Both the position numbers and the translations under genes were made by a program. Shown one piece after another: positions 1,657 to 37,120 of a stretch of 41,931 bases of DNA. The DNA lies in IMG/VR virus record IMGVR_UViG_3300033153_010157, positions 1 to 41,931 of that record. One strand, 5' to 3'. The stretch's first letter is position 1. Each line of letters begins with the position of its first letter. The stretch comes from a virus. The notes beneath the pieces were generated by a model. It was given only the letters and a program-made list of their open reading frames with translations. It was not told the origin of the DNA and ran no database searches.

Positions 1657-3030
1657 TTAATACTTAATCCGACCAGTCTGCCCGTCAGTATTGAAAAAGT
1701 CCGGCAGCTTCGACTCTCCGCCATAAACAGACTCATAACGAAGCTTTTCAAGCTCTTCTGCTGACAGATCATCTCTCGTTTTTGGTAGCGATACACACAT
1801 GTAACGTAAGGCATCACAGGCGTGACTGTATCTATCATGAAGTGGAACATTCTTGTATACCTGCCTCTTGTCATCATACTCCTGCCTGTAATTTTCTATT
1901 GCTCTTATAAGCTTTGCACAACGCTCCTCATCAATCCATATTTTACTTAAAGCTGAACGAACCGACTCAATGCCATCCATTATCGGAAGCTTTGGCGCAA
2001 TAATGAAATCAATGCCGAGATTCTTCGCCTTTTCAATGCGTGTCATGCCAGAACCAAACTCTTTAACCGCTATGTCATGAGGCGCTATGTGCTTGCCGTA
2101 GGTGTACTCCTTTGATAACACATGCTTGACGTAGTGCTCAAGGCCCTCCTTGCTCTTCTCGTAGTAATCAATAATACGAACAGTTTGACCTATGGTCTGA
2201 AAAAAGATGATGGAAGTAGAATCACGTACGCCGATGTCAAAAGCTGTGTGGACACTAAAGCCCGCCTCCCATGGAACAACGCTGACCTGGTTGTTGAGCC
2301 TCATCCTGTCCAGGTACTTGCAGTAGTACGAACCCTCAACTCCTGCATCAAACGAGACATAATATTCCTGCTGAACCAGATCGGGCGACATCAGTCCCTC
2401 GTGTATCTCTCGATCTATTTCAGCAGGATCTATGTGCCTGGTCTCATTAAGACCAAGCTTACAAGTCCACCATTCCGGTGAATTCAATGCTAATTGATAA
2501 ATATCCCAAAAGTGATTACGACCACGTGGCGTACTCTGGAATATCGCCCAACCCTTATTGGCAGCTAGTATTGGTGACATTAGGGCATAGATACGTGGGT
2601 TCTGCAGAGCATATTCAGAAAAAACAACGCCGCGAGGGTTAGTGCCCACGATTCTATCTGGATTATCAGACCCAATGATTTGAATAATGGATCCATTTGT
2701 AAACACTACCTTCATGTCTTGAGAGTTCATCGCCTCAACGGCCTGCTTGGGTATGTAGTCCAAGAAGCGATCGCCCTGTATGGTTACTGAGCTCCATAAG
2801 ATCTTCTTGCCCTGCGCGTACGTAGGATACACGAGGTAGTAGACCCCCGGATTGACGAGCGCTTCTCGGATGACGATGTTCCAGGTGCAAAGGTCCTTGC
2901 CAGCACGACGACACATGACAATCACCATCCTTCTGAAACGATCCTTGAAGAACGCCTCAAAGATTGGACGCTGGTAGTCACGCGGCTTGAACTTGTTAAG
3001 GTGTATCTTCACCTCCACTGGATATTGCAC
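1657..3030 (-). CDS. terL: Terminase large subunit
   Basis: A 457-residue packaging motor. It shows an ATPase Walker A variant (CRRAGKD, residues 40-46), a Walker B with a following acidic residue (GVVFSEY, 134-140) and a coupling motif QSTPRG (165-170). The nuclease domain follows, with FDIG at 264-267, a middle PHDI and a C-terminal HDRYSHACDALRY. The enzyme translocates phage DNA into the prohead and cuts it at the end of a packaging round. The start is GTG at 3030 preceded by AAGGAGAATA; it overlaps the end of the upstream 50-residue gene by 35 bases. All catalytic motifs expected for a working terminase are present. It lies about 4.5 kb from the probable small subunit, separated by a run of small genes. 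Confidence 0.97.
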   Translation of the reverse strand: MQYPVEVKIHLNKFKPRDYQRPIFEAFFKDRFRRMVIVMCRRAGKDLCTWNIVIREALVNPGVYYLVYPTYAQGKKILWSSVTIQGDRFLDYIPKQAVEAMNSQDMKVVFTNGSIIQIIGSDNPDRIVGTNPRGVVFSEYALQNPRIYALMSPILAANKGWAIFQSTPRGRNHFWDIYQLALNSPEWWTCKLGLNETRHIDPAEIDREIHEGLMSPDLVQQEYYVSFDAGVEGSYYCKYLDRMRLNNQVSVVPWEAGFSVHTAFDIGVRDSTSIIFFQTIGQTVRIIDYYEKSKEGLEHYVKHVLSKEYTYGKHIAPHDIAVKEFGSGMTRIEKAKNLGIDFIIAPKLPIMDGIESVRSALSKIWIDEERCAKLIRAIENYRQEYDDKRQVYKNVPLHDRYSHACDALRYMCVSLPKTRDDLSAEELEKLRYESVYGGESKLPDFFNTDGQTGRIKY

Positions 3031-3148
3031 TATTCTCCTTTTTATCTAACCTTTGCTCCAACGCTTCAACCTTATCCGCTAATTCCTCAAGGGCCGCATA
3101 GACCTCCTTATTAAATCCGGCTTCTCTAATCCCATAATTATCACTCAT
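2996..3148 (-). CDS. Short coiled-coil protein, unknown
   Basis: A 50-residue protein starting at ATG 3148. The preceding GAGGAGGAGCTGC supplies a good ribosome-binding site and is also the end of the upstream gene (EEELHE). The middle (EVYAALEELADKVEALEQRLDKKE) is a clear heptad-type helix and the C-terminus is a flexible Gly/Ser/Glu tail. It overlaps the terminase start by 35 bases. It may be an oligomeric helper, but it is too short to be a normal small terminase and I assign no function. Confidence 0.65.
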   Translation of the reverse strand: MSDNYGIREAGFNKEVYAALEELADKVEALEQRLDKKENSAISSGGEDTP

Positions 3149-3419
3149 GCAGCTCCTCCTCAAACTTCTTCTGTAACGCCTTGCGCACCTCATCCTTGGG
3201 TATATGCTCCAGAAACGACTCCATACGCTCCAACCTTGTCTCTGCTAGCATCAACTTGCGCTCAAACTTGTTGCACCTGTCCATGTAATCAAGCACATGA
3301 TCAGAGTACACGTCAATCCGCTTCCTGTGATAGTCAATTCTGTCCTCGAGGCAAGCCGCACGCTCATCAATGTCCTCTCTGATCTCCCTGATCTTCGCCA
3401 ACATCTCTTCACTTTTCAC
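3141..3419 (-). CDS. Coiled-coil protein, unknown
   Basis: A 92-residue protein, almost wholly charged helix (EEMLAKIREIREDIDERAACLEDRIDYHRKR and onward), with a predicted coiled coil through most of its length. The start is GTG at 3419 in the context GGAG-CTCAA-GTGA, so start and upstream stop overlap by four bases. This spacing is the same as at the repeated boundaries further along the strand. No transmembrane segment or known domain is seen. It belongs to the small-gene run between the two terminase genes. Confidence 0.7.
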   Translation of the reverse strand: MKSEEMLAKIREIREDIDERAACLEDRIDYHRKRIDVYSDHVLDYMDRCNKFERKLMLAETRLERMESFLEHIPKDEVRKALQKKFEEELHE

Positions 3420-3802
3420 TTGAGCTCCTTCTCGAAGCTCGCCTTAGTTGCCTCCTTAAACGACCGCACAACCTCTTTATGCATATCAAAGGACGTCTTG
3501 TCCTTAACAGTGATAAACTCCTCGTACGTCACTATCTCGTCCGCTATAGCCATAAACTTGTTCACATCATCAAGCGTTGGCGCTCCATCCCATATCTTCC
3601 TGTAAATACGCCACGCCTTGTCACTGTAATTCTTCACCAGACGACCAACCTCAGACCTTAAAAGGATAAGATTCTTGGCCTCTATCGAGTTAGCCAGCTT
3701 ATCCGGTGGCTTACCCTTGAGCTCCTTGCTCTTGCGAACGTACTCCTTCTCAGCATCCTTGTACTTCTTGTAAAACGCCGGTAACTTTCTATTCCTTCCC
3801 AT
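3416..3802 (-). CDS. Hypothetical protein, basic helical
   Basis: A 128-residue protein beginning MGRNRKLPAFYKKYK, rich in Lys and predicted helix, with no recognised domain. The start is ATG 3802, taken because AAGGAGAAGTG gives five bases between GGAG and ATG; the frame could also start at the overlapping GTG three bases earlier. The region IWDGAPTLDDVNKFMAIADEIV may form a small helical bundle. The upstream boundary carries the repeated AAGGAGAAGTGATG unit, but the upstream gene here already stops before it. Function unknown. Confidence 0.7.
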   Translation of the reverse strand: MGRNRKLPAFYKKYKDAEKEYVRKSKELKGKPPDKLANSIEAKNLILLRSEVGRLVKNYSDKAWRIYRKIWDGAPTLDDVNKFMAIADEIVTYEEFITVKDKTSFDMHKEVVRSFKEATKASFEKELK

Positions 3803-3811
3803 CACTTCTCC

Positions 3812-3982
3812 TTACAAATGCTTTAATCCCTGCTTCCTTCTATCATCCACGCTTTTCTTACGCTCCTTCTCGCGATGCCTATCCAGCCAACTCAGTTCTC
3901 GCCACACGGACACCTCATGCGCTATTAACCAAACCGCGCTAGCAAGTCCAAAGCTTAACATTAACCCAGCCAGCTCACTCAT
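3812..3982 (-). CDS. Small membrane-anchored protein (56 aa)
   Basis: A 56-residue reading frame starting at ATG 3982 after AAGGAGAAGTG. Residues 2-20 (SELAGLMLSFGLASAVWLIA) form a hydrophobic N-terminal helix. The rest is a charged, basic helix (REKERKKSVDDRRKQ). This layout suggests a single-span membrane protein with a cytoplasmic tail. It fills the gap between two neighbours and has proper start and stop signals on both sides. No family recognised. Confidence 0.6.
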   Translation of the reverse strand: MSELAGLMLSFGLASAVWLIAHEVSVWRELSWLDRHREKERKKSVDDRRKQGLKHL

Positions 3983-3992
3983 CACTTCTCCT

Positions 3993-4229
3993 TCAGTATC
4001 TTGGCAGCATTCTTAATAACGCCATTACTGCCTCTGCAGGCGCAACAACCATTATAAGAAACAGCACTACGTGACCAGCAATCCTAACAGCAGCGCCATA
4101 AAACATATATAAAACACCGCCTACGAACGTATCACATTTTATCTTATCAAGATGGTTTGAAACGAAATCTAGTAAACTAATGCAACCCATGACAGCGCAC
4201 AAAACAACATAAACATTAAGCCTATACAT
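3993..4229 (-). CDS. Small two-span membrane protein
   Basis: A 78-residue protein with two hydrophobic segments: near the N-terminus (LNVYVVLCAVMGCISLLDFV) and near the C-terminus (IAGHVVLFLIMVVAPAEAVMALL). Holin-like size and layout are possible, but the gene lies in a run of unknown small genes and no holin family is recognised. The start is ATG 4229 at the AAGGAGAAGTGATG boundary. At its end the gene runs into a second copy of the same boundary DNA (AAGATACTGAAGGAGAAG) in a shifted frame and stops early, ending RY instead of KILKEK. Confidence 0.65.
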   Translation of the reverse strand: MYRLNVYVVLCAVMGCISLLDFVSNHLDKIKCDTFVGGVLYMFYGAAVRIAGHVVLFLIMVVAPAEAVMALLRMLPRY

Positions 4230-4750
4230 CACTTCTCCTTTAGTATCTTGTCCTCAATCTCAAATACACGGTCAACGTAGGCTATACCCTTCTCAACACT
4301 CACCTTGCCATCACTGCCCTTCTCACACTTCTTGATCTTTAAGCGAGCCATCTCCTTCCTGACCGCCTCATCCATCACTGAGCGGTACGCATCGTTCGCC
4401 TCTGTACTACGCTTAGCAGACTCCATGCACACCTCAAATGCCTTATCTTGCTCATGATCTAGAAGTACGTATGCTTTGTACTTAGCGCCATACTCACTAT
4501 CTGCTGAGTGTGGCGGCGGGATGTCACCGATTCGTGCTGCTTCAATGAGATGCGTACTTGCACTACCGTACTCAATATTACACATCACCTCTGAAATGCC
4601 GTGTGCCTCAAAAGCAAAATCCGCAAAGTCACTACGGGCAAGAATGCTCTTATCCCTTAAGTACTGGTGCTTACGGCATAAAGTGTGATACTCATCCCTT
4701 GCATCATCAGACACCTTCTTTAACTCGCGACACCTCTTCCACTCTTCCAT
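4229..4750 (-). CDS. Hypothetical protein, 173 aa, ends DKILKEK
   Basis: A 173-residue hydrophilic protein that starts MEEWKRCRELKK and ends DKILKEK. The longer open frame upstream is rejected because ATG 4750 has AAGGAG five bases before it and the upstream frame overlaps another gene. The protein is helical at both ends, with four scattered cysteines, and carries a Pro/His motif IPPPHSADSEYG near the middle. No known domain was recognised. Its last codons overlap the repeated boundary unit that serves as ribosome-binding site for the next gene. Confidence 0.7.
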   Translation of the reverse strand: MEEWKRCRELKKVSDDARDEYHTLCRKHQYLRDKSILARSDFADFAFEAHGISEVMCNIEYGSASTHLIEAARIGDIPPPHSADSEYGAKYKAYVLLDHEQDKAFEVCMESAKRSTEANDAYRSVMDEAVRKEMARLKIKKCEKGSDGKVSVEKGIAYVDRVFEIEDKILKEK

Positions 4751-4872
4751 CACTTCTCCTTGTCCTCCTCGTACTGCCGCTTGGCCTCCTTGATCAGGTC
4801 CTCTAACGTTGCACACAAGCTGTCGAGGCTGTCTGCTATGCGTACCAGTGGGTCAATTGCCTTCTTGCTCAT
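4750..4872 (-). CDS. Tiny helical protein (40 aa)
   Basis: A 40-residue frame with start ATG 4872 preceded by AAGGAGCAAG. It is a single amphipathic helix (VRIADSLDSLCATLEDLIKEAKRQYEEDKEK). Its last codons GACAAGGAGAAGTGA hold the Shine-Dalgarno of the following gene, giving the end KEK. The start overlaps the end of the upstream gene by 20 bases. It may work as an oligomerising peptide; function unknown. Confidence 0.55.
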   Translation of the reverse strand: MSKKAIDPLVRIADSLDSLCATLEDLIKEAKRQYEEDKEK

Positions 4873-5062
4873 CTTGCTCCTTAAGGGTTATAACCCATTT
4901 TTCATTAGCTATCTTCGGAGATCCGGAACGTTGTTCAGCAGGCTCAGGGGGAGTATACTCAAAGACAGCATCATAGCTTTCCTGGAATATCATCTCTGTG
5001 CCGCCCGCGTGATCTAATTCTATAAAATAACCCTTCTTCCCGTCAGTTTGCTTCTTTGGCAT
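4853..5062 (-). CDS. Small acidic hypothetical protein (69 aa)
   Basis: A 69-residue protein. ATG 5062 was chosen because GAGAGGAGGCAG precedes it; the open frame extends further upstream but would cover the neighbouring gene. The sequence (GYFIELDHAGGTEMIFQESYDAVFEY, then a Pro/Glu linker, then EKWVITLKEQDEQ) suggests a small beta-rich fold. It overlaps both neighbours by about 20 bases, typical of this tightly packed run. No family recognised. Confidence 0.6.
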   Translation of the reverse strand: MPKKQTDGKKGYFIELDHAGGTEMIFQESYDAVFEYTPPEPAEQRSGSPKIANEKWVITLKEQDEQEGN

Positions 5063-5204
5063 CTGCCTCCTCTCTAACGATGGCGTCGTATTCCTTCTTG
5101 ACCTCTGGGTCCTTGATGACTTCTTCCCAAAAGGCCTTGAACGTTGGTCTTTTAGACTCAATGGCCTTGTCGAGTGCGTTGCATACGTCTTGCTCCTTAC
5201 TCAC
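5043..5204 (-). CDS. Small hypothetical protein (53 aa)
   Basis: A 53-residue frame starting at GTG 5204 in the repeated boundary GAGGAGACCAAGTGAG, where the upstream stop TGA and the start GTG overlap by four bases. The protein MSKEQDVCNALDKAIESKRP and onward is helical and hydrophilic. The N-terminal MSK recurs at other starts in this array (6562, 7516) because the boundary unit extends into the first codons. Function unknown. Confidence 0.6.
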   Translation of the reverse strand: MSKEQDVCNALDKAIESKRPTFKAFWEEVIKDPEVKKEYDAIVREEADAKEAN

Positions 5205-5551
5205 TTGGTCTCCTCGGGGTTGTCCTCTTTGTAAAAGCGCTCAATTTGCTGCTCTAGCGCGTCTCCGATACGGAACAAGCCTTCATATACAACCTGATGA
5301 CCAGAGTGATCGCTTCGGCGCACCTGTATAACTTCGGATATATAAAAGTCTCGAACAGTCACGCTTACTCTTGCTTTCTTGGTCTTTCCTACCTCAACAA
5401 CGCTATTAACGTCTTCATATGAGAATTTGCTATTGAACTCATCATAGGCCCTGCGCGCTAGCTCATCTCCCAGCTTTGTTGCGGGCGCGTAAGTCTTCCA
5501 CTTGAGCTCCTTACCGTCTGCGCTTACGCAGTACTCTACTGGTTCTCTCAC
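5201..5551 (-). CDS. Hypothetical protein of the PEETK array (116 aa)
   Basis: A 116-residue protein starting at GTG 5551 inside the type I boundary. It seems to be a mixed alpha/beta fold: an N-terminal beta part (VEYCVSADGKELKWKTYAP), a helix (LGDELARRAYDEFNSKF), strands (RVSVTVRDFYISEVIQVRR) and a C-terminal helix (LEQQIERFYKED). It ends NPEETK, from the boundary unit. I recognise no family. It is the last of the consecutive genes with this tail. Confidence 0.7.
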   Translation of the reverse strand: MREPVEYCVSADGKELKWKTYAPATKLGDELARRAYDEFNSKFSYEDVNSVVEVGKTKKARVSVTVRDFYISEVIQVRRSDHSGHQVVYEGLFRIGDALEQQIERFYKEDNPEETK

Positions 5552-5958
5552 TTGGTCTCCTCTGGTAAATAGTCTTTGACCCTTATGTGGACGTATTTCG
5601 TATCGCTGTCATCGCGGTAACCTATGTCATACGCGTGAAGAAGAAACGCATACTCTTCATAACGGCATATCGCTACATCCTTGTCCACAGATTCTCTTTG
5701 ATCGTCAGATATTACAAGCACGCACCACCAACCTATCTTCCCTAGCTCTCCACCAAGCGCGTGCTCTGGTTCTTCGTAAGTTAATATCGAAACGAACTCT
5801 GGCATCTCTGTAAAGACACGGGCTAAGTCTGGGTGACAGGCTATGATGAAATCGTGAATATAGTCGTCGGCATACGGTGCGTCCCTGACCTTTTCTGGGT
5901 CGCCTCCGGCCAGCTCCCAGGCTACTTTGTTTAGCTTTTCAAGCAGCTCGTTACTCAC
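5548..5958 (-). CDS. Coat-protein-segment paralogue A (136 aa)
   Basis: A 136-residue protein starting at GTG 5958 in the type I boundary. Residues 34-85 align without a gap to coat protein residues 186-237. Matching features are the His followed by x-Asp-Leu (CHPDL against AHSDL), the F at position 22 of the segment, Y-x-x-P, E-x-G-x-IG, and a closing L..S. The C-terminal 45 residues (AICRYEEYAFLLHAYDIGYR) also recall the coat protein's following FCVGMEAYACV stretch. It is closest to the 7124-7516 protein. It lacks the N-terminal half of a coat protein, so it cannot build a shell alone. It may bind capsids, modulate assembly or act as a decoy; this is inference. Confidence 0.75.
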   Translation of the reverse strand: MSNELLEKLNKVAWELAGGDPEKVRDAPYADDYIHDFIIACHPDLARVFTEMPEFVSILTYEEPEHALGGELGKIGWWCVLVISDDQRESVDKDVAICRYEEYAFLLHAYDIGYRDDSDTKYVHIRVKDYLPEETK

Positions 5959-6263
5959 TTGGTCTCCTCGTCTTTCCATCGTTTATCGCACACAAATAAT
6001 CTTACCTCACCTATTGATCCTATCTCGCCCTGCATTTTTTTTAACGCCAGTGGGTAGCTACCTGCTCCGATAAATCCATGTGCGCTTTCGATGTCGTCTA
6101 CCGCGCTCGCCGCACATGCTACAAACACGGCATACTTGCGGGGCTCATCGCTAAATATGGTTCCCATAAATCCACTATCTCCTGGAAGGGCACCGATAAG
6201 ATCAAACGTTGCGCCTCTTAGTTCGTTTGGTTTAAATACTTTCTCTTCCTCTTCAAGTCTCAC
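5955..6263 (-). CDS. Coat-protein-segment paralogue B (102 aa)
   Basis: A 102-residue protein starting at GTG 6263 in the type I boundary. Residues 43-94 align without a gap to coat residues 186-237, sharing GFI, YP, and the E-G-IG-R signature (GEIGSIGEVRLF). The conserved His of the other copies is Ala here. The protein ends soon after the signature (DKRWKDEETK), so it lacks the C-terminal strands present in copies A, C and D. Its N-terminal 40 residues (KPNELRGATFDLIGALPGDSGF) are unique. Start and stop are both set by boundary repeats. Confidence 0.7.
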   Translation of the reverse strand: MRLEEEEKVFKPNELRGATFDLIGALPGDSGFMGTIFSDEPRKYAVFVACAASAVDDIESAHGFIGAGSYPLALKKMQGEIGSIGEVRLFVCDKRWKDEETK

Positions 6264-6562
6264 TTGGTCTCCTCGGGCGCTCTCATCTTCCTGTATGCGT
6301 TGTACGAGTCAAGATCACCATAAAGTGATTCGCGCAGTTCTTGCTGCATTTTCATGTCTCTTTCTGCCTCTTTCTCGAAAGACCTATCGCACTCCTCTGT
6401 CACCCCGTATTTTTCTATTATAAGTTCGTCGATGGCGGCACTGCATTCATCGCACACTGCGCAATGCACCTTCATTGCAACGCCTATTGCAAGAACTGAG
6501 TCGTTTCTCTTCCTGTACAGCACTCGACATTTAGCAAATAGTTCGTCGTATTTCTTACTCAC
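6260..6562 (-). CDS. Cys-containing helical protein (100 aa), PEETK tail
   Basis: A 100-residue protein, GTG start at 6562 in a variant boundary. It is mostly helical and charged. A short cysteine cluster (HCAVCDEC) near residue 35 could bind a metal ion, with another Cys after a GVTEECDRSF stretch. It ends APEETK from the boundary unit. No recognised family. Its size and organisation match the other cassette genes. Confidence 0.65.
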   Translation of the reverse strand: MSKKYDELFAKCRVLYRKRNDSVLAIGVAMKVHCAVCDECSAAIDELIIEKYGVTEECDRSFEKEAERDMKMQQELRESLYGDLDSYNAYRKMRAPEETK

Positions 6563-6834
6563 TTGACCTCCTCTGGCAGGTTGATTGTTACTGTGTTGTT
6601 ACGGCACTTCTTGCATTCGCACAGCACAACTCTCTCTCCAATCTCTTCTCCTGGGGGCGGCTCTTCAAACCAGCACCCACCAACAACTCTTGGTTCGAGG
6701 TTGTACTGTTCCGTGCCATCTTCATCTGTCCACTTTACGACCGTCATGGCGCCGACAACGCCATCGTCGCCTTTAAATGCCTTGCGCATCGACTCAAGCG
6801 CTGCCTGTTTTTCTTCTTCTGTCTTTACGAACAC
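6559..6834 (-). CDS. Possible zinc-ribbon-like small protein (91 aa)
   Basis: A 91-residue protein starting at GTG 6834. The C-terminal half contains CECKKC preceded by a beta-type stretch (GERVVLCE) and an earlier Cys (GGCWFEEPPPGEE). This is suggestive of a small zinc-binding knuckle. It ends TINLPEEVK, and the last codons (ACAATCAACCTGCC then GAGGAG) match the end of the small terminase gene over a longer stretch than the boundary core. Its start overlaps the upstream gene, which reads through the usual stop position (ETKCS). Confidence 0.65.
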   Translation of the reverse strand: MFVKTEEEKQAALESMRKAFKGDDGVVGAMTVVKWTDEDGTEQYNLEPRVVGGCWFEEPPPGEEIGERVVLCECKKCRNNTVTINLPEEVK

Positions 6835-7127
6835 TTGGTCTCCTCTGGCAGGTTGCGTGTCTTTGAAAACTCCCGATAAGTGGCTGATCCAAGTATCTGC
6901 CAGCCGAGGTCGCTGGAGAGTCTCAGTGTGTCGTTGCCCTTCAGGTCTTTGAACTCCTCCGTTTTAAGCATCTTTTCAACGAGGTAGTCGAGTGCGCCTC
7001 TGTAATTCTTTGAGTACATCTTATGTTTGTCGGCTAACTGCATGTACTGAACGTAAGTATCATCTGTCTGTATCTTCATGGTGCAGCATTGTTCATAAAG
7101 GTGCTGGAGGTGTTTTGGTATTGTCAC
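6825..7127 (-). CDS. Hypothetical helical protein (100 aa), LPEETKCS end
   Basis: A 100-residue protein starting at GTG 7127 in the type I boundary. It is helical and rich in Lys, Tyr and Met, with the middle part YRGALDYLVEKMLKTEEF. The boundary unit at its end lacks the A that would complete TGA, so the frame goes two codons further and ends LPEETKCS. This shows the boundary DNA can be carried even when it no longer supplies the stop. Function unknown. Confidence 0.65.
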   Translation of the reverse strand: MTIPKHLQHLYEQCCTMKIQTDDTYVQYMQLADKHKMYSKNYRGALDYLVEKMLKTEEFKDLKGNDTLRLSSDLGWQILGSATYREFSKTRNLPEETKCS

Positions 7128-7516
7128 TTGGTCTCCTCGGGCAGATAGTCTTTGACCCTTATGCGGATACAGGTCGTGCCAGAACGATTGATATAATCGA
7201 TGTCATACGCATGATAAAAACACGGGTCAAACTCATAGCGGCATATTGCTATTTCCCTGTCTTTGCAGCGTCTTATTGCGTCAGATGTTGCCAATAGTAT
7301 AAATGGGCCAATTCTACCTAGCTCTCCACCATACAGGTTCTCTGGCTCCTCTTCAGCCAAACTAGAAACAAACTCTTTCATTCCCATAAAGACAGGGGTC
7401 AAATCAGCATGACAGGCTATAATCAACTCGTAACAGGGATTCTTCGCAATCCCCTCAAGGTTAACGCCTGCTAGCTCCTTAGCTACGCTATTTAACTTGT
7501 CAAAAAGCTTACTCAC
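7124..7516 (-). CDS. Coat-protein-segment paralogue C (130 aa)
   Basis: A 130-residue protein starting at GTG 7516. Residues 28-79 align without a gap with coat protein residues 186-237: H-x-D-L, F, E-P, E-x-G-x-IG and L-L-x-x-S are shared. It closely resembles the 5548-5958 protein along its whole length, including the N-terminal KLN-VA-ELAG and the C-terminal IRVKDYLPEETK, so the two are recent duplicates. It sits directly after the probable small terminase gene, joined by a type I boundary. Role unknown; capsid binding or modulation is the natural hypothesis. Confidence 0.75.
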   Translation of the reverse strand: MSKLFDKLNSVAKELAGVNLEGIAKNPCYELIIACHADLTPVFMGMKEFVSSLAEEEPENLYGGELGRIGPFILLATSDAIRRCKDREIAICRYEFDPCFYHAYDIDYINRSGTTCIRIRVKDYLPEETK

Positions 7517-8022
7517 TTGGTCTCCTCAGGCAGGTTGATTGTTTTTGTGTCGTCTTTTTTGGAGAAGTCTTCGAGTACGAAGGTGTATCGGGTGTCGGTT
7601 GGAGCGTTGACTTGAGTACGTGCTTTGAGTTCGGCTCTCCATACTTCGAGGTCTTTCCATGATTTGTCGTATTTGGCCATTTGGTTCATGACCAGTGATG
7701 CGTTGAGTTTATTTTTGAGTGCGCCTATTTCGCGTCGATTGCCTATAAGCTCTAGGGCTGTGTCTTTGACGAGTTTTAGTGTTTCGTATTTATTGACCCA
7801 TCGGTAGAAGGTCATACTGGGAATGCCCTTTGAGAAGATGAACTGAGTGAGTTTGAGAGCTGTGTCGTCTTTCATGGCCCATTCGATTAATTCGAGGGCT
7901 AATCTGTCTATAAAAGCATCGCTTATTGGCTTCTGCCGAAGCGTGAAAAGGTCCTTGTAGACCTCCGCAACGGACATGGTAGGATTATACTCTTTTGTGT
8001 TATTGTTAAGAGTTTTGGACAT
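7513..8022 (-). CDS. Probable terminase small subunit
   Basis: A 169-residue protein from ATG 8022 (preceded by CAGGAG). The N-terminal part includes a helix-turn-helix-like stretch (GIPSMTFYRWVNKYE, about residues 66-80). A helical region typical of terminase small subunits follows (ELIGNRREIGALKNK ... KYDKSWKDLEVWRAELK). Such proteins form rings that recognise the packaging site and load DNA to TerL. The tail TINLPEETK belongs to the boundary repeat and not to the family. It is separated from terL by a run of small genes, which is unusual because the two subunits are normally adjacent. The assignment rests on sequence character and context, so other DNA-binding roles remain possible. Confidence 0.65.
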   Translation of the reverse strand: MSKTLNNNTKEYNPTMSVAEVYKDLFTLRQKPISDAFIDRLALELIEWAMKDDTALKLTQFIFSKGIPSMTFYRWVNKYETLKLVKDTALELIGNRREIGALKNKLNASLVMNQMAKYDKSWKDLEVWRAELKARTQVNAPTDTRYTFVLEDFSKKDDTKTINLPEETK

Positions 8023-8362
8023 TATCAGACTCCTGTGTCTGGCAGCATGTTTCGATGCCGTGTTCTATTGCGTCGACGATTAGGCTTCTGCGTGCGGCTG
8101 GTTTTCGGTACACGTTTGTTACGATTTCGTGGCCGCTCTCTTTGGTTGTCACGCCTAGCCTTATTGCTTGATACAGTCCTTCGTCGACGTCTTTAATTCC
8201 TTTGCTTACAAGTTCAATAAGTTCCTGTTCGCCCATTGACTTTATGAGCCTGAGGTAGGCCTTCTCGGTTGTCTTGCGTACGGATCTTTCGGTTTCTGAA
8301 CACCACTCTACTTGCGTGTCTCCGACAAACAGTCGGAAGCCTATTCTTTTGTCTTTACTCAT
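8006..8362 (-). CDS. Hypothetical protein (118 aa)
   Basis: A 118-residue protein starting at ATG 8362. It overlaps RusA upstream by 8 bases and the small terminase downstream by 17 bases. The sequence begins with strands (RIGFRLFVGDTQVEWCSE), then helical stretches (KTTEKAYLRLIKSMGEQELIELVSKGI). No signal peptide or known domain is recognised. The tight overlaps indicate it is expressed together with DNA-processing and packaging genes. Confidence 0.7.
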   Translation of the reverse strand: MSKDKRIGFRLFVGDTQVEWCSETERSVRKTTEKAYLRLIKSMGEQELIELVSKGIKDVDEGLYQAIRLGVTTKESGHEIVTNVYRKPAARRSLIVDAIEHGIETCCQTQESDNVQNS

Positions 8363-8783
8363 TGTGCTCTCCTGGCTGGGTTATTATGATTTCGGTTCTT
8401 GGATTGTGTGAGTAGGTCTTGGTTGCCTTAAGAGTATATACTTGAGCGTCGTCGTAGTATATGGTTCCGCTGCAAGTGTCGAGGTAGAATTTGGCTAGGT
8501 TGTCGATATCGGGTCGTGTGTGGTGGGGTTGGTTGAGTCGTTGGGTTTGTTTTTTTTTGGATAGAGACGGAGCAATAGGCATGTAGAAGTGTAGCGTTAT
8601 TCCTATTGCTCCGGATAAGGGGACAGGAGGGAAGGTGAGCGCCTTTCCCCACTGCTCATGTATGATCCAGGAGATGTCTTCTTTGATTTCGGCTTGAGGG
8701 TCGTAGGTGTGTCCTTTGGTGTGTCGGTGTCTGACCATGGCGATTGGTTTACCAGGTATGGTTATTATTATTTCTGGCTTCAC
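8355..8783 (-). CDS. rusA: RusA-family Holliday junction resolvase
   Basis: A 142-residue protein of normal RusA length. The catalytic region RPDIDNLAKFYLD (about residues 90-102) gives the family's Asp pair, followed by IYYDDAQV with the further Asp residues and the basic K-T-Y stretch. The N-terminal IIITIPGKPIAMVRHRHTK is the usual first strand and basic loop. RusA dimers cut four-way junctions symmetrically. In phages they resolve branched DNA before packaging, and its place two genes before a probable small terminase fits this. All expected acidic residues are present, so it should be active. Confidence 0.92.
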   Translation of the reverse strand: MKPEIIITIPGKPIAMVRHRHTKGHTYDPQAEIKEDISWIIHEQWGKALTFPPVPLSGAIGITLHFYMPIAPSLSKKKQTQRLNQPHHTRPDIDNLAKFYLDTCSGTIYYDDAQVYTLKATKTYSHNPRTEIIITQPGEHNE

Positions 8784-8784
8784 G

Positions 8785-9702
8785 TTATCCTTCGTTTAGG
8801 AGTGCTTCCAAAAAGCGGAAGTATTCTGTTTCGGTTAGCAGAGTTCCTCGCTTGACTGACTCTGGTGGTTGCAGTTGAAAGATATTGTATTCGATGTAGT
8901 CGTCGGTCTTTTTTGGGCCACAGTGTTCTCTGTATAGTTCTATGTGTCGCATGATGGTTCTAAGCATCATGCCTTTGGCTGAGTTGGCCATTTCTTCTTT
9001 TATGGTGGTCATGACTTCGCCGATGTGTCGCGGGCCATTGGTCGCTATTTTTGGTGTGCATTTGGTATCTCCGAGTTGTTTTTCTACGGCATTGCCCCAG
9101 TTGTCGCATATTTCGTGGAGGCTGAGTTTAGCTTCTCTGTCTGGGTCTGGTTCGGTGTATGATCCGCTTTGTTCGTTTGAGCTTGATTTTAAAAACTTGT
9201 AATCTGTGCCGTGTATTCGTCTATGATATTCGTTGACCTGGTCCTTAGTAATTGGATCTCCGTGCTTGGGCTTATCGTAATTATAGCTGCATTCTGTGTA
9301 CTGGTTTTGTATTTTGCGTGCTTTTTTTGCGAGGGCGCTTTGATCATAGGTTCCCGGCGCGTGATGTTCTTCGTCTTCACCCTCTAAGTCAAGAATGATT
9401 GGGTCGTCTGTTGTTGCTCTTTCATCTTGTGAGAAGTTGTATTTCGCAGCAAGCTTGTTGAATGTCTCTAGATTTGGCTTGAATCCTCTTTCTTTGGCTA
9501 TGTTTTCGGCAGTTCTATGTAGGTACCTGTAGGGGTTATCGATCACCCCCTCCCTTTTAAGGAATCTTCTCAGGGCGATATGCGCATCGCGGATCGCTTC
9601 CGCAGGGTAGAATGTGAGCTTCGCTTTCCCAAAAGTGGTAAGTCTGAGGGTTTGTGTATCTATTGCTTCAATCTCTTTCTTAGCTGCTTTACCTTGGTCC
9701 AT
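8785..9702 (-). CDS. Hypothetical protein, possible replication partner (305 aa)
   Basis: A 305-residue hydrophilic protein whose start at ATG 9702 follows AGGAGGAC and overlaps the upstream gene by 14 bases. The N-terminal 90 residues are helical and basic (AHIALRRFLKREGVIDNPYRYLHRTAENIAKERGF). An acidic linker follows (LDLEGEDEEHH), then a helical C-terminus (GEVMTTIKEEMANSAKGMMLRTIMRHIELYREHCG). I see no Walker motif or nuclease motif. Coupling to the HTH protein suggests a role in replication, for example a loader, but this is context only. Confidence 0.7.
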   Translation of the reverse strand: MDQGKAAKKEIEAIDTQTLRLTTFGKAKLTFYPAEAIRDAHIALRRFLKREGVIDNPYRYLHRTAENIAKERGFKPNLETFNKLAAKYNFSQDERATTDDPIILDLEGEDEEHHAPGTYDQSALAKKARKIQNQYTECSYNYDKPKHGDPITKDQVNEYHRRIHGTDYKFLKSSSNEQSGSYTEPDPDREAKLSLHEICDNWGNAVEKQLGDTKCTPKIATNGPRHIGEVMTTIKEEMANSAKGMMLRTIMRHIELYREHCGPKKTDDYIEYNIFQLQPPESVKRGTLLTETEYFRFLEALLNEG

Positions 9703-11056: not shown

Positions 11057-11308
11057 GTGAAAGACGACATCAAATCAGATAAAAAGACATACATGATCAG
11101 GACATACAGTGAAGCTACTTTCACAGAAAAAGAATATACCCTTAAAGAGAAAAGGGTAGATGAAGACGGCATGCTCACATTCGTCGACAAAGACGGCAAC
11201 GAGATGAAAAAGTGCCATGGATGCTTCAAGGCCAAAGAATATGATGAAGAAGACGAATACAACGAAAAGATGTTCAACGAACTAGTCAACGACATTCGCG
11301 GATACTAG
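11057..11308 (+). CDS. Small acidic protein with MKDDIKS leader and CHGC motif (83 aa)
   Basis: An 83-residue protein starting at GTG 11057 after AAGGAGACTCA. Its first eleven residues match the start of the 10728 gene. The following part is different: a beta-rich region (YTLKEKRVDEDGMLTFVDKDGNE), a CHGC pair that could bind metal, and a very acidic tail (EYDEEDEYNEKMFNELV). The strong negative charge would suit a DNA-mimic or host-protein inhibitor, but this is not shown. It ends just before the hairpins that precede the tRNA genes. Confidence 0.7.
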   Translation: MKDDIKSDKKTYMIRTYSEATFTEKEYTLKEKRVDEDGMLTFVDKDGNEMKKCHGCFKAKEYDEEDEYNEKMFNELVNDIRGY

Positions 11309-11320
11309 CCTTTTTGAACA

Positions 11321-11381
11321 CGGGTGGCACTAACCGCACCCGCTGAGAACCAGGGGCCTTTACCCATTCGTGAGGCCCCTG
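11321..11381 (+). other. Two adjacent hairpins immediately before tRNA-Glu
   Basis: CGGGTG (11321-11326) pairs with CACCCG (11337-11342). CAGGGGCCT (11351-11359) pairs perfectly with AGGCCCCTG (11373-11381). The second stem ends two bases before the tRNA-Glu acceptor. It could be a processing signal for host RNases or an attenuator; no T-run follows. Confidence 0.55.
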
Positions 11382-11382
11382 T

Positions 11383-11459
11383 GGGGCAGTAGCTTAATAG
11401 GTTTGAGCATCGGCCTTTCACGCCGGAGGTTGCGGGTTCGAATCCCGTCTGCCCTTCCA
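11383..11459 (+). tRNA. tRNA-Glu (anticodon UUC)
   Basis: A full cloverleaf can be drawn. The acceptor GGGGCAG pairs with CTGCCCT, the D stem is GCTT/GAGC, and the anticodon stem is TCGGC/GCCGG with loop CTTTCAC, so the anticodon is TTC. The T arm has loop TTCGAAT. The CCA end is encoded (11457-11459). The first acceptor pair is G-T. It reads GAA and GAG, codons that are frequent in the acidic early proteins. Confidence 0.95.
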
Positions 11460-11473
11460 CTAGACAGACAAAT

Positions 11474-11550
11474 GGGCCAGTAGTTTAAATGGTACAGAAC
11501 AGTGGACTCCAAATCCACAGGAGGGGGTTCGATTCCCTCCTGGCCTGCCA
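11474..11550 (+). tRNA. tRNA-Trp (anticodon CCA)
   Basis: The cloverleaf has acceptor GGGCCAG/CTGGCCT, D stem GTTT/GAAC, and anticodon stem GTGGA/TCCAC with loop CTCCAAA, giving anticodon CCA. The T-arm loop is TTCGATT. The discriminator base is G and the CCA end is encoded. It is an ordinary UGG decoder and not a stop suppressor. It follows tRNA-Glu by 14 bases in the same transcript. Confidence 0.95.
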
Positions 11551-11565
11551 CTTTGACCTTTTTTG

Positions 11566-11593
11566 TCCGTTCTCGACGCAGAGAACGGATTTT
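11566..11593 (+). terminator. Rho-independent terminator after the tRNA genes
   Basis: TCCGTTCTC (11566-11574) pairs perfectly with GAGAACGGA (11581-11589) around a six-base loop, followed by TTTT. It ends the small-gene and tRNA transcript just upstream of the next promoter. A second GC-rich inverted pair (GCCCC ... GGGGC) lies immediately after it. Confidence 0.85.
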
Positions 11594-11708
11594 CTCGCCC
11601 CTGTTGGTCTACTCTCCGGCGGGGGCAAGCTTTTAAACCCCCTCTTTACATAGAAATACACACCCCTTGTGACAGATAGCCAGATATAAATAAATATGCA
11701 TTACCCCC

Positions 11709-11737
11709 TTGACATTGGGGCCAAGTTCTTGTATTCT
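11709..11737 (+). promoter_or_regulatory. Sigma-70-like promoter for the early operon
   Basis: TTGACA (11709-11714), a 17-base spacer and TATTCT (11732-11737). This matches all six -35 positions and is close to the -10 consensus. It lies between a terminator and the ATG at 11784, so it should drive the rightward operon. Confidence 0.85.
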
Positions 11738-11783
11738 TGGGGTAGTGAAAGAAACGAGTAAACCAAAGACCGAGGAGACCAAG

Positions 11784-12209
11784 ATGGAAATGAAAGTAAC
11801 GAGGGCACTTAGCACTCTAGCCGTGACGTTCAACAATGCAATCATTGCGTTCCTGTATGACGACAATAGGGACGCCATAGACAAGTTTGACGCCTTCTTC
11901 GATGCAGCAAGTGATTTTGCTTTTGTTGCAGAAGAGGAAGAAAACCTGTTGGAGATCATGGATGATCGCATGGCAAAGCGAACGTTTTATTGGAATTTTG
12001 ATAAACAACTCAAAGAAAAAACTGGAAACCTGCAAGAAGAATACGATGAAGCGAACGCAGAAGTCGAGCGTGCCTATTACAACTCAGATAAATATGGCGA
12101 CACAACATACGAGATGGAAAGGATCGCAACAATGCTAAACCTACTGGAAAAAGTAGTCGTTTCAAAAAAAGAAGATGAAGAAGCATGGAAGGTTACATTT
12201 AAAAACTGA
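11784..12209 (+). CDS. Early hypothetical protein (141 aa)
   Basis: A 141-residue protein starting at ATG 11784, preceded by GAGGAGACCAAG, a copy of the type I boundary without the stop. The open frame runs further upstream through the promoter, which is not coding. The protein is helical, with an N-terminal hydrophobic helix (ALSTLAVTFNNAIIAFLY) and a long acidic coiled-coil C-terminal part (EEYDEANAEVERAYYN). It is the first gene after the strong promoter. No family recognised. Confidence 0.75.
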   Translation: MEMKVTRALSTLAVTFNNAIIAFLYDDNRDAIDKFDAFFDAASDFAFVAEEEENLLEIMDDRMAKRTFYWNFDKQLKEKTGNLQEEYDEANAEVERAYYNSDKYGDTTYEMERIATMLNLLEKVVVSKKEDEEAWKVTFKN

Positions 12210-12279
12210 AAAGTTCGTGATAGGTTCGTGAATTTTGTCAAGCGTATGGAAACCAGATGGAAACTTTTAGGAGACCAAG

Positions 12280-12453
12280 ATGATATTAATAATTGCGCTG
12301 ATTATTTTCGTCAGTATGTACTTTAGCGCCGAAAGCAATGCCAAAAGCAGCGCCAAATGCAGTGACAAAAGAATTGAAATTATGCGCCTAGAGATACACG
12401 ACCTTGAGGACGAGAAGAAGAAACTTGAAGAAAAGATAAAGGAGTTATCATGA
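12280..12453 (+). CDS. Small membrane-anchored coiled-coil protein (57 aa)
   Basis: A 57-residue protein starting at ATG 12280 after GGAGACCAAG, another boundary-unit copy. The N-terminus is hydrophobic (MILIIALIIFVSMYFSA), followed by a short Ser/Ala stretch with one Cys and a charged coiled coil (EIHDLEDEKKKLEEKIKELS). It resembles very small inner-spanin-like or signal-anchored proteins, but its early location argues against lysis. The stop overlaps the next start (ATGA). Confidence 0.7.
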   Translation: MILIIALIIFVSMYFSAESNAKSSAKCSDKRIEIMRLEIHDLEDEKKKLEEKIKELS

Positions 12454-12728
12454 AAGAGAAATTTACAGAAACAGCCAAGCAGCTGCGTGAGCTGCAAGCA
12501 AAGATAAGATTCCTTAAAAAGAAGGCGGACGAAACGGCCGTTCGCCTTAAGGAACTCTGCAGTAACGAGACAACGTCGCTAAATGGCTACACATACAAAC
12601 GTATTGAGCGCGTAGGCAACGTTGACTACTATCTAATACCAGAACTCCAAGGCGTCGATCTCGATCAATACAGGAAAGATATAGTCGTGTCATGGAAACT
12701 TACGTACGAAGAACAATTCAACATTTGA
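12450..12728 (+). CDS. Coiled-coil early protein (92 aa)
   Basis: A 92-residue protein starting at ATG 12450 after AAGGAGTTATC, overlapping the previous stop by four bases. Residues 1-40 form a basic coiled coil (AKQLRELQAKIRFLKKKADETAVRLKEL). The C-terminal half is probably beta-rich (YTYKRIERVGNVDYYLIPELQG). No family recognised. It belongs to the same operon as its neighbours. Confidence 0.7.
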   Translation: MKEKFTETAKQLRELQAKIRFLKKKADETAVRLKELCSNETTSLNGYTYKRIERVGNVDYYLIPELQGVDLDQYRKDIVVSWKLTYEEQFNI

Positions 12729-13194: not shown

Positions 13195-13311
13195 ATGTTG
13201 ACACTTTTACAAGATCGTGGTAAATTGGCTTATTGGCACATAAAAACAAGGAGAAAGTATGAGCGACAAGCTAAGAAAGTTTACCGTCCACATTCCACAG
13301 GAATATTATGA
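13195..13311 (+). CDS. Possible 38-aa leader peptide overlapping a promoter
   Basis: A short frame from ATG 13195, preceded by a very good Shine-Dalgarno (CAGGAGGTTATC). It encodes a basic 38-residue peptide (MLTLLQDRGKLAYWHIKTRR and onward) and ends inside the RHH gene in another frame. It also overlaps a promoter. Either the peptide is a real leader of the upstream transcript, or the Shine-Dalgarno is a relic of a lost gene. I cannot decide which. Confidence 0.3.
   Translation: MLTLLQDRGKLAYWHIKTRRKYERQAKKVYRPHSTGIL
13198..13226 (+). promoter_or_regulatory. Sigma-70-like promoter for the regulator and recombination genes
   Basis: TTGACA (13198-13203), a 17-base spacer and TAAATT (13221-13226). 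It lies just upstream of the RHH gene start at 13259. An internal promoter here would let the RHH, capsid-paralogue and ERF genes be expressed separately from the upstream small genes. Confidence 0.75.
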
Positions 13312-13472: not shown

Positions 13473-13865
13473 GTGAACCGAGAAAAGCTAGACGAAGCCA
13501 CCATAAAACTAATGAAATACTGCACCACTCGCGAAAGTGATGCTGACTCTCGCGAGTGGTTCCTATCTGTTTGTCATCCCAAATCTGCCGCCGTCCTCAG
13601 GGACGTAAAAGGGTTTATACCGATTTGCAAATATGAATACCCAGAAGATGGCTTCGAAGGAGAGATAGGATCAATAGGAAACCTCAGGATACTGTTAGCG
13701 TCATATCATCGAGAACCAGAAGGCGACCACCATTACGTTACATCCTACCTGGTAAGCCATCAAGCCAGAATAAAAGGTACCCGCTTTGAACGTACATTCG
13801 ATATAGATGTAATGTCAGATATAAAAGTAATCGCAGCACTAGCCGCCAACCAAAAGGAAGACTAA
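13473..13865 (+). CDS. Coat-protein-segment paralogue D (130 aa), early operon
   Basis: A 130-residue protein; the frame starts 2 bases after the RHH stop (GTG, AAGG upstream). Residues 27-78 align without a gap to coat protein residues 186-237 with 20 of 52 identical. Shared positions include RE-x-F, the His, GFI, Y-x-x-P, and E-x-G-x-IGNLR-x-LL-x-S. This is the closest of the four paralogues to the coat protein. Unlike the others it lies on the opposite strand, in the early recombination operon, and lacks the PEETK end. Coat-derived proteins made early could prepare, regulate or mimic the capsid; no function is shown. Confidence 0.75.
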   Translation: MNREKLDEATIKLMKYCTTRESDADSREWFLSVCHPKSAAVLRDVKGFIPICKYEYPEDGFEGEIGSIGNLRILLASYHREPEGDHHYVTSYLVSHQARIKGTRFERTFDIDVMSDIKVIAALAANQKED

Positions 13866-14425
13866 TGCCAACAGATAAGGCCCCTAAAGCAGAAGTGAGA
13901 GGCGTACAAGAACAAATCAACGACCTGTCGGCACTCCAAAGATATGCACGAGAGATCGCGAAAAAAGACTTCTTCTACAACGTAACGTCACCTCAAACCA
14001 ACGAGATCGTAGCCGCACTAGCAAAGTTCAAAGAAGGCATGGGCGAAATGAAAACAGATAAGACCGCAGGCGGACGATACAAGTACCAGAGCCTACCGGG
14101 CCTGCTCAACGCCATCTCGCCAGGACTGGCCAAAAATGGCTGCGTATGCATGCAACCCGTCCAGTCACTAGGCGACACAACATACGTCATAACCATGATC
14201 ATGCACTCCAGCGGACAGTACGTACGATCCATCACCGCAATACCCGCACAATACCTCATGGCAGGTAAAATCGTAACAACCAAAGAAAATCTACAAGCAA
14301 TGGGCGGCGCAATAACATACACCAAACGACACTCACTTAAATCAATACTCGGCATAGACGCAGACGAAGATACCGACGGCGGTGGCGCAACATACACACC
14401 ACGGAGCAACTATGGAAACAACTGA
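13865..14425 (+). CDS. erf: ERF-family single-strand annealing protein 1
   Basis: A 186-residue protein starting at ATG 13865, overlapping the preceding TAA by one base. The ERF pattern is clear: YKYQSLPGLLNAISPGLAKNG near residues 75-95, a hydrophobic beta region (TYVITMIMHSSGQYVRS), and the characteristic MGGAITYTKRHSLKSILGID followed by an acidic DEDTDGGG. ERF proteins form rings that anneal complementary single strands and drive phage recombination and genome circularisation. It is slightly short, lacking a long C-terminal extension. A second, diverged ERF gene lies 2 kb downstream. Confidence 0.9.
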   Translation: MPTDKAPKAEVRGVQEQINDLSALQRYAREIAKKDFFYNVTSPQTNEIVAALAKFKEGMGEMKTDKTAGGRYKYQSLPGLLNAISPGLAKNGCVCMQPVQSLGDTTYVITMIMHSSGQYVRSITAIPAQYLMAGKIVTTKENLQAMGGAITYTKRHSLKSILGIDADEDTDGGGATYTPRSNYGNN

Positions 14426-16107: not shown

Positions 16108-16514
16108 AAAAGTGTACCGAGATGAGAATTTTGTAGGAAGGCTTGAGCTACTCCTTTCCAACGGTCCTGAGGCGTCTGTTCACCTTTACATATGGAACAA
16201 TGGCGAGCATGGATACGACGAATTCACGGCCCGTGAAATTATAGAAAAGCTAAAAGACATACTTAGCGATGCGGGCCTAACGCACTTCTTAGACACAGAA
16301 GAGCTTATGAGGATAAGATTAAGATTCTCCACACTTCAGTGCCCACGTAAAGACATATACAGAAACGCCATAGAGTGCGAAGACGATGAATTCTACATAA
16401 AAAAAGAAGAGAATGCAGTTTGCGCCATTGAAAGGCGACTACATATCATACTGGAAGATTACGGGTTGCTACCATACGAGGAGGATGATGACGATGGAAG
16501 CTGAGAAAGTGCCC
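16093..16514 (+). repeat. Type III gene-boundary repeat (DDGS end / MEAEKV start)
   Basis: GACGATGGAAGCTGA followed by R-AAAGTG occurs at 16093-16114 and again at 16490-16511. Each copy ends one protein with DDGS and starts the next with MEAEKV, the two frames overlapping. The junction at 14412 (ATGGAA...CTGAGAAAGT) is a weaker third copy. The genes joined are unrelated. Confidence 0.85.
16097..16504 (+). CDS. Hypothetical protein between two type III boundaries (135 aa)
   Basis: A 135-residue acidic protein starting at ATG 16097 (GAAAGGATCGACG upstream) and overlapping the previous gene by 11 bases. It has a beta-rich start (SVHLYIWNNGEHGYDEF) and a helical remainder (AREIIEKLKDILSDAGL). 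It ends in an acidic stretch and DDGS from the boundary repeat. No family recognised. It sits as a cassette between the three-module DNA-binding protein and the second ERF. Confidence 0.7.
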   Translation: MEAEKVYRDENFVGRLELLLSNGPEASVHLYIWNNGEHGYDEFTAREIIEKLKDILSDAGLTHFLDTEELMRIRLRFSTLQCPRKDIYRNAIECEDDEFYIKKEENAVCAIERRLHIILEDYGLLPYEEDDDDGS

Positions 16515-17261
16515 CAAAACGATACACATATGCTTTCCCGCCTTGAGGAACTTGAGGCATATGTTGAAAAGAAGATCCAGCAGCGACTCAAGAAAGAAAA
16601 GCCCGCGCCATACGAATCCGAAAAGACCGACCAGATAGCAACTGCACTCGCCAAGGCACAGGGCGAGTTCCCAGTAATCAACACCAACAGAGCCAACAAC
16701 TTCCTGTTCAACCAGTACTCCGACCTCGACATCATCATGCGAACAATACGACCCGCTCTTTCAGTGAACGGCCTTTCAGTGACACAACAAACCAAATTGA
16801 TAGACGATAAGATCATTCTCGTCACTAGATTGCGACACAAGTCGTCACAGTTCATCGAGACCAGGACCAGGATCATCCCCTCAAAGAACGATCTGCAGTC
16901 TTACTCGTCCGCGATGGATAAGATGAGACGTGGTGACATCAAGAGCCTCTTGAACATCACAATCGTTGATGATTACGACGACGACGATGGCGAACACGAC
17001 ATGAAAGAGGTACGGAAGGAGCGGAACAAAGGAACAGGTATAAATACCAGGTACGAAGCAAGAAGGGAGTCTTTCGAGCCCATCACTCAACACCAAGAAA
17101 GCGAACTGCAGTACATGCTCGGAGACTACCCCGATATCGCAGAAAACATCCTGGAAACCCTCAAAGTGCAAACACTAGCCGATATACCCAAGTCCAAGTT
17201 CGGACCCGTTAGGGATCAAGCTCAAAAGATTATCAACGCCAGGGAAGGCCGTAACAAATAA
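16494..17261 (+). CDS. ERF-family single-strand annealing protein 2
   Basis: A 255-residue protein starting at ATG 16494 (GAGGAGGATGATGACG upstream); the longer frame upstream lies in the previous gene. The ERF core is recognisable: ATALAKAQGEFP, YSDLDIIMRTIRPALSVNGL, VTRLRHKSSQFIETRT, then SYSSAMDKMRRGDIKSLLNI and an acidic DDYDDDDGE. The family's GSAITYARRY-type motif is altered to SYSSAMDKMRR. The C-terminal extension (EPITQHQESELQYMLGDYPDIAENIL) resembles a small helical domain seen after other annealases. It is diverged from the first ERF, so this is an old duplication or a second acquisition and not a recent copy. Confidence 0.85.
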   Translation: MEAEKVPQNDTHMLSRLEELEAYVEKKIQQRLKKEKPAPYESEKTDQIATALAKAQGEFPVINTNRANNFLFNQYSDLDIIMRTIRPALSVNGLSVTQQTKLIDDKIILVTRLRHKSSQFIETRTRIIPSKNDLQSYSSAMDKMRRGDIKSLLNITIVDDYDDDDGEHDMKEVRKERNKGTGINTRYEARRESFEPITQHQESELQYMLGDYPDIAENILETLKVQTLADIPKSKFGPVRDQAQKIINAREGRNK

Positions 17262-19309: not shown

Positions 19310-19324
19310 TATCTCTCCTTAAAT

Positions 19325-23556: not shown

Positions 23557-23568
23557 CTCGATTCTCCT

Positions 23569-23910: not shown

Positions 23911-23929
23911 TATCTCTCCTCAGTTTAAG

Positions 23930-23972: not shown

Positions 23973-23985
23973 ATGAATGTAGTCG

Positions 23986-24246: not shown

Positions 24247-24262
24247 CTTTCTCCCCGTTGGG

Positions 24263-24598: not shown

Positions 24599-24651
24599 TA
24601 ACTTCCTTTCTTTTTAAGTGTAGCACCTTCACTTGCCGTCACACCAGACTT

Positions 24652-36169: not shown

Positions 36170-37120
36170 TTATGGTGCTAGGGTTGTACGTAAGTTGATG
36201 ATCCACTCATCGTTCAAGATGCGAGGAACCTCAGCAAACTTATATCCAACAGAAGCATTGAGTGCGAGTGGCCCGTCATAAATAGGCGGACGATAGATGA
36301 ACTGAGCAGAATATTGATCTTGTTCAACACACGCATAAGCTTCCATCCCAACACAAAAGATATTGTATCTCATCGCACCAAGCGCCGAAGCCCCAATTTC
36401 ACGAGAGCCGACCGAGGACAACAAGAATCTTAGATTCCCAATTGCTCCCCACTCCGATCTCGTAGCATTCATAGGCGACGGATACTGCGCTTTGGCAATA
36501 AAGCCAGCGGTAGCATCAAGCTCGCCAATGAGGTCTGAGTGCGCCAATGCGAAAAAAGATTCTCTAACTGGAGCAGTTCCGAACTTATCTTCACCTTCAA
36601 TATTGTCCATTATAGTATAAGCGTCTGCTCCAACAAGAGTTCTAACAACGGTGTCAATATCACCAATTGTAACTTCTGTTGGGTTATCGCCGTTGACACC
36701 ACCGACGCAGTTGATAGCAGCCGCACCTGCAGCAAGCATCTCACGTGTCAGTTGATCTTCGGTCTGTCTTAGAGAAACACCCAATCGCTTAGCTGCTTCA
36801 TTCAATACAGGATCTTGGTTCTGGAGGGTAACCTGCTCGTTCAGTTGAACGTAGGTACCATAAAACGAAATCTCTGCATCGATGTCGATAGCTGTGAGCA
36901 ATTGTGATGGTGGATGAACCCCGCCGTTCCCCAATGGAACCATAGCGGTTTCTAACGGATTATATCTCCTCATCCTAAGCGTTGTTCCACCTTTAGCAGG
37001 CATAGTCTTTTTGACAGCCGCTATCTTGTGGATCAAGTTAGGAACCGGAACACTGAGTAATTTCATGGAGAATGAATGTTGGACCGGTGCTGGGAGATTC
37101 GCCGTAGTTGTAATAGGCAT
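36170..37120 (-). CDS. Major capsid (coat) protein, N4-gp56-like
   Basis: A 316-residue protein starting at ATG 37120 (TTAGGATAATT upstream). The N-terminal half is helical with a typical coat N-arm and E-loop region (KTMPAKGGTTLRMRRYNPLETA). Residues 186-237 contain the coat-family segment: AHSDL, GFI, YPSP, and EWGAIGNLRFLLSS. HK97-fold coats of the N4-gp56 group carry a Glu-x-Gly-x-Ile-Gly signature at the same place. The gene follows the scaffold and precedes decoration-type genes. A late-type promoter and a three-copy repeat lie in its leader. Four small proteins elsewhere in the window share its 186-237 segment. Confidence 0.88.
   Translation of the reverse strand: MPITTTANLPAPVQHSFSMKLLSVPVPNLIHKIAAVKKTMPAKGGTTLRMRRYNPLETAMVPLGNGGVHPPSQLLTAIDIDAEISFYGTYVQLNEQVTLQNQDPVLNEAAKRLGVSLRQTEDQLTREMLAAGAAAINCVGGVNGDNPTEVTIGDIDTVVRTLVGADAYTIMDNIEGEDKFGTAPVRESFFALAHSDLIGELDATAGFIAKAQYPSPMNATRSEWGAIGNLRFLLSSVGSREIGASALGAMRYNIFCVGMEAYACVEQDQYSAQFIYRPPIYDGPLALNASVGYKFAEVPRILNDEWIINLRTTLAP

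Follow-up and report, generated by a model that had tools for sequence, protein, structure and literature searches.

Among described phage proteins, the N4-gp56 coats (TIGR04387 / phrog_1357) come closest to the small proteins analysed here, with which they share the pattern F-x(5)-Y-x(9)-E-x-G-x-IG and an order of elements extending over about 130 residues. In HK97-type coats, the elements that run in this order from the spine helix to the last P-domain strand form the axial (A) domain, which lines the capsomer axis in shells of this type. Unlike an N4-gp56 coat of about 316 residues, the small proteins (102-136 aa) appear to consist of the axial segment only, and in the phage studied here they occur as four divergent copies outside the head gene cluster.

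Coat paralogues have been described before. The vertex protein gp24 of phage T4 is a paralogue of the coat gp23, and most dsDNA phage genomes are without paralogues (PMC5694885). As with gp24, the small proteins represent a second coat-derived protein within one phage. However, gp24 is a shell subunit that forms the vertices, whereas the small proteins are single domains present in multiple copies; the complete coat fold of a gp24-like vertex paralogue would be absent from them, judging by their single-domain length. Known phage coat paralogues are whole shell subunits. A set of four stand-alone coat axial domains in a single 42-kb genome, placed in accessory and early-type operons, would thus be an exaptation without precedent in the open-access literature searched, which yielded no description of a free-standing coat axial-domain family under truncated coat genes, decoys or paralogues.

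The CapRel and Thoeris systems show that host sensors read coats, parts near the A-domain among them, so that copies of a coat domain could matter in such immunity (PMC9712102, PMC11312562). The contrast is that the window copies do not retain the surface of the coat. Should the targets of the small proteins be coat sensors, the coat or rival coats, the proteins could serve directly as tools for studying how shell assembly is protected or policed by phages.

Genome setting of the small genes

The window, i.e. the whole stretch of DNA analysed, comprises a 41,931-bp virus record. A direct repeat of 114 bp at its termini makes it very likely a complete genome. Its relevant features are collected in Table 1, and the small genes are named below by their first coordinate. 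The leftward genes begin with a replication/RusA block (8.4-10.5 kb), followed by the putative TerS gene, many small genes and the TerL gene; beyond the junction, the portal (40036-41871), coat and tail genes continue in the same direction. The putative TerS is conserved in 18 loci (29-53%) and has no strong family match. The gap between TerS and TerL measures 70 to 3018 bp in the 18 relatives' loci versus 4482 bp in the window, and the array genes at 3993-7127 have no counterpart in the fetched relatives' loci, the coat-derived signal aside.

Table 1. Coordinates of the coat, the small coat-derived genes and their neighbours
Feature	Position	Strand	Remarks
Terminase large subunit (TerL)	1657..3030	-	phrog_2, E 2.5e-23
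Hypervariable small-gene island holding three of the four copies	3031..7512	-	between putative TerS and TerL genes
Putative free-standing coat A-domain paralogue, 136 aa	5548..5958	-	GTG start in GAGGAGACCAAGTGA
Putative shortened free-standing coat A-domain paralogue, 102 aa, ending after the G-x-I-G strand	5955..6263	-	
Putative free-standing coat A-domain paralogue, 130 aa	7124..7516	-	directly behind the putative small terminase gene
Putative small terminase subunit (TerS)	7513..8022	-	inferred from position before TerL and helix-turn-helix-like N-terminal part
Putative free-standing coat A-domain paralogue in rightward early-type operon	13473..13865	+	phrog_1357, E 4.4e-6
Coat segment aligned by the small proteins (residues ~151-284)	36270..36670	-	alignments, profile comparison
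Major coat protein, N4-gp56 family	36170..37120	-	TIGR04387, E 5e-39; phrog_1357, E 2.8e-33
Fifth member, free-standing, 121 aa	L018:7400-7765		TTG start behind AAAGGAG

The three leftward ORFs are joined to their neighbours by GTGA stop/start overlaps, with GAGGAG ahead of each. The fourth copy, 13473, lies between a gene encoding 70 aa and one that is Erf-like, among rightward genes at 13.2-17.3 kb that include two Erf-like annealing genes. A promoter-like site lies upstream of it at 13198-13226, although the count of such sites does not exceed chance. The two Erf-like ssDNA annealing proteins (13865-14425 and 16413-17261, +) belong to one operon and are 25% identical over 122 aa.

Kinship to the coat protein

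The earlier note had described the three leftward ORFs and the early copy as four coat paralogues that align without gaps to one and the same coat segment. Both statements are borne out. The best alignments to the coat are gap-free, span 54-88 residues and all fall within coat residues 180-276: residues 37-124 of 5548 pair with 189-276, residues 37-91 of 5955 with 180-234, residues 36-94 of 7124 with 194-252 and residues 24-77 of 13473 with 183-236. Shuffled sequences aligned as well in 1 of 300 cases for 7124 and in none of 300 for each of the others. In blastp searches of a small set, the E values to the coat were 6e-5 (5548), 9e-6 (5955), 0.01 (7124) and 9e-8 (13473); 7124 is weak against the coat alone and is linked through its match to 5548 (E 6e-42).

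Family models point the same way. TIGR04387, the N4-gp56 major capsid model, matches all five free-standing proteins (the fifth is described below) at profile positions 154-240 of 324, with E values from 5e-8 to 0.02. The scores of 14-33 bits lie under the curated cut-off of 60 bits, which the coat passes with 134.5; in score as in missing parts, the small proteins are not full N4-gp56 major capsid proteins. PHROG 1357 (major head protein) is matched by 13473 (Table 1) and weakly by two other small proteins.

Failure of the reverse comparison, recovery of coats by a profile of the small proteins, had been named in the earlier note as what would refute its claim; coats were indeed found, and the claim stood. 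Built from the four small proteins without the coat, the profile picked up the coat in 50 of 50 relatives' records. Once the fifth member had been included, it did so in all of 23 and 25 further records of the clade; among records with distant coats the coat was found in 42 of 50, and among phage-database records in 9 of 10, a Schitoviridae phage of Vibrio being one of the nine. Profile-profile comparison (hhalign) reached 98% for coats (E 2.8e-13) and 0.1% for a portal control; the shortened 5955 gave 87.6% (E 3.5e-6). The best PDB matches of the profile were phage coats, at the homologous place. An apparent likeness of the five-protein profile to the anti-CRISPR AcrIIC2, over 29 residues at GELGxIG (7124, 5548), is at chance level (E 1.5), and AcrIIC2 is absent from the match lists of the other two profiles.

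The coat of the window can be regarded as the parent fold of the small proteins, which are almost certainly stand-alone descendants of the A domain of an N4-gp56/HK97-fold coat.

The segment copied

According to the alignment, the small proteins begin at a helix D-V/I-x-x-V-V-R-x-L that corresponds to about coat residue 153. It is followed, in this order, by the H-x-D-L helix, G-F-I, Y-P-x-P and E-x-G-x-I-G-N-L-R-F-L, and all but 5955 reach the strands Y-N-I-F-C-V-G-M-E-A-Y-A. Only coat residues ~151-280 are covered; the N-arm, the E-loop and the last P-domain strand are missing, and the small proteins would therefore be unable to build a shell alone.

From fold knowledge, the copied segment is taken to be the axial (A) domain of the coat. 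The assignment rests on this knowledge because the structure models are weak: AlphaFold reached a pLDDT of 51 with coat rows and 57 without them, and a Foldseek search of these models against PDB and BFVD returned no significant fold match. In a second structure look at a weak model, residues 195-290 of the phage B2 capsid ranked third (Z 3.1), which is suggestive only.

A check by column found F, E-x-G and I-G conserved in all five proteins. The residues listed in the earlier note largely stood: besides F and E-x-G-x-IG, the Tyr column holds Tyr in every protein but 7124, which has Glu, and H-x-D-L is found in 5548, 7124 and the coat. The proline was stated imprecisely, as that of 5955 pairs with the first Pro of the coat (Y-P) and that of the others with the second (Y-x-x-P). 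The description of 5955 as lacking the conserved His and the C-terminal strands agrees with the columns; its sequence stops right after the strand.

Age, selection and origin

The claim that two of the copies are recent duplicates did not hold. The pair concerned, 5548 and 7124, is 51-54% identical in amino acids and 65% in nucleotides, with dN 0.36 and dS 1.14 by NG86 and dN 0.40 and dS 0.96 by YN00. The pair is not recent, with dS about 1, and it is under purifying selection (dN/dS 0.32-0.41), in keeping with the selection that the earlier note had deduced from repeated duplication. The four small genes are best read as old and diverged copies of a single middle domain of the coat, each standing alone.

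The segment tree places the small proteins with their own coat clade against distant coats (98/97), on long branches. Neither one nor several origins, nor descent from the phage's own coat, was rejected (AU p 0.19-0.24). The second Pro of Y-P-x-P, the Gly of I-G and a Ser after the strand are common to the own clade and most small proteins and are not found in most distant coats; these shared residues support descent from the own coat lineage. What the small proteins have retained appears to be the fold core (F, Y, E-x-G-x-IG). At 67 near-invariant positions of the coat clade, they keep 20-38% of the residues and the coats of unrelated phages 24-36%. As clade-invariant residues are thus kept no better than in unrelated coats, a faithful capsid subunit or an exact mimic becomes less likely.

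Distribution and the fifth copy

Free-standing copies are rare. Among 98 records with close coats (phages or fragments) besides the window, only IMGVR 3300033388_005411 (G010, or L018 in Table 1) carries one, and none was found in the other 97, of which 28 are at least 30 kb long. Collection-wide scans with small-protein patterns gave no member beyond this one, DNA searches of phages and a search of plasmids gave no match to the small genes, and a search of genome contigs gave one coat-bearing contig, from a Parachlamydiaceae MAG, without a small copy. The expectation that such proteins occur only in phages of this coat type agrees with the finding that both carriers have such a coat; it applies to a search made mostly in coat-bearing records, together with the collection-wide pattern scans.

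The G010 copy is inserted cleanly behind the coat cluster, 1.1 kb behind the coat gene, where the gap measures 409 bp versus a median of 39 bp over 122 loci. Its G+C content is 31.7% versus 42.2% for its coat, and a hairpin-like sequence precedes it, as is also seen in the relatives displayed. The insertion looks moron-like.

Other candidates were set aside. A 159-aa frame in G118 lies within a 1287-bp coat match and is read as an interrupted coat and not as a free-standing copy. In L244 and L233, the coat is followed by a long gap that contains no coat domain but a tandem second copy of the neighbouring 337-aa gene (L244, about 8273-9271; L233, about 11308-12475).

What the small proteins may do

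We favour, with a probability of roughly 0.4, the reading that the small proteins are domesticated A-domains that have left the capsid and bind in trans. The small alpha/beta domain would have persisted as a scaffold whose surface could mostly vary, and would act as a protein binder. The family may have grown through duplication and divergence; the accessory island holds three of its members and the early-type operon the fourth. The likeliest class of target would be a host factor, in defence or takeover, and the timing of expression is one that we infer. Domesticated A-domains acting in trans agree with the placement of the copies in an early-type operon and an accessory island, with the moron-like insertion in G010, with their multiplication within one genome and with the purifying selection. 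Further, 13473 shares its operon with a recombination gene and not with virion genes. However, the G010 copy stands inside a structural cluster, right behind the coat, which suits a role in the virion or its assembly equally well.

Such a role would make the small proteins capsid-assembly factors: free A-domains could bind the capsomer centre or unassembled coat and serve as plug, cap, chaperone or size control. Derivation from the domain at the capsomer axis, and the short distance between the G010 copy and its coat gene, speak for it. We nevertheless consider it unlikely, though a serious candidate, since the early-type operon holds one copy and the other three also lie away from the head cluster, the 28 long records of close-coat relatives do without any copy, and contacts of the own coat are kept no better than in unrelated coats. 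A reading in which the small proteins act against the coats of others, as dominant-negative inhibitors of rival phages with related coats (superinfection exclusion or mutual exclusion at assembly), seems quite improbable. The two carriers fall within one environmental coat clade, and Tab provides a precedent, in another form, of a phage-borne protein that blocks virion assembly (PMC10884400). But the phage's own coat, which is about as similar to the small proteins as other coats of the clade or more so, would have to be spared, and the window proteins scanned include no lysogeny gene.

The coat axial domain may instead have been turned into an early and accessory protein family that shields the phage, as decoys or inhibitors of CapRel/Thoeris-like sensors. 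Made before the coat, such proteins would occupy host capsid sensors without triggering them, and they would be the phage counterpart of capsid-derived interference factors. CapRel-SJ46 binds a coat via the spine helix and P-domain, and contacts to A-domain loops are predicted as well (PMC9712102); for the staphylococcal Thoeris protein ThsB1, the prediction is contact with the middle of the coat hexamer (PMC11312562). These predicted contacts near the A domain or hexamer centre, the divergence of the copies and the early-type location of one of them are in favour. Sensor shielding is, however, rather unlikely, because the recognised surface should persist in a decoy and only the 20-38% of clade-invariant residues given above do, because the sites of escape from CapRel map to the P-domain region that is mostly missing from the copies, and because a bound coat fragment might trigger the sensor instead of blocking it. 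That the genes are non-functional relics of coat duplication, as the truncation of 5955 might suggest, is very improbable in view of four intact frames in compact operons and the dN/dS between 5548 and 7124 at their degree of divergence.

Further features of the island and neighbouring genes

All-against-all blastp of the array gave the coat signal only, so that the other array genes are not read as fragments of virion proteins. Seven junctions (5215-7527, -) carry GAGGAG(A/G)(C/T)CAAGTGA, which combines a Shine-Dalgarno sequence, a stop and an overlapping GTG start. Because this motif spans stop and start, unrelated proteins share the C-terminus (LP)EETK. The seven shared junctions are possible recombination joints for gene shuffling.

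Around the terminase genes of the relatives, the TerL frames of L082:1404-2654, L239:608-2080 and L058:1568-3274 are interrupted in frame by intein-like stretches at three different sites, with Cys at the start and HN or GN at the end before Ser/Cys. A different small-protein family, next to the putative TerS (window 8006-8362), is apparently duplicated, by eye, in L006 (1084-1437 and 1447-1791). In the window, large tail-fibre-like proteins (17477-27344, -) share repeated modules; for instance, 17477-19309 and 19325-21121 show 30% over 251 aa.
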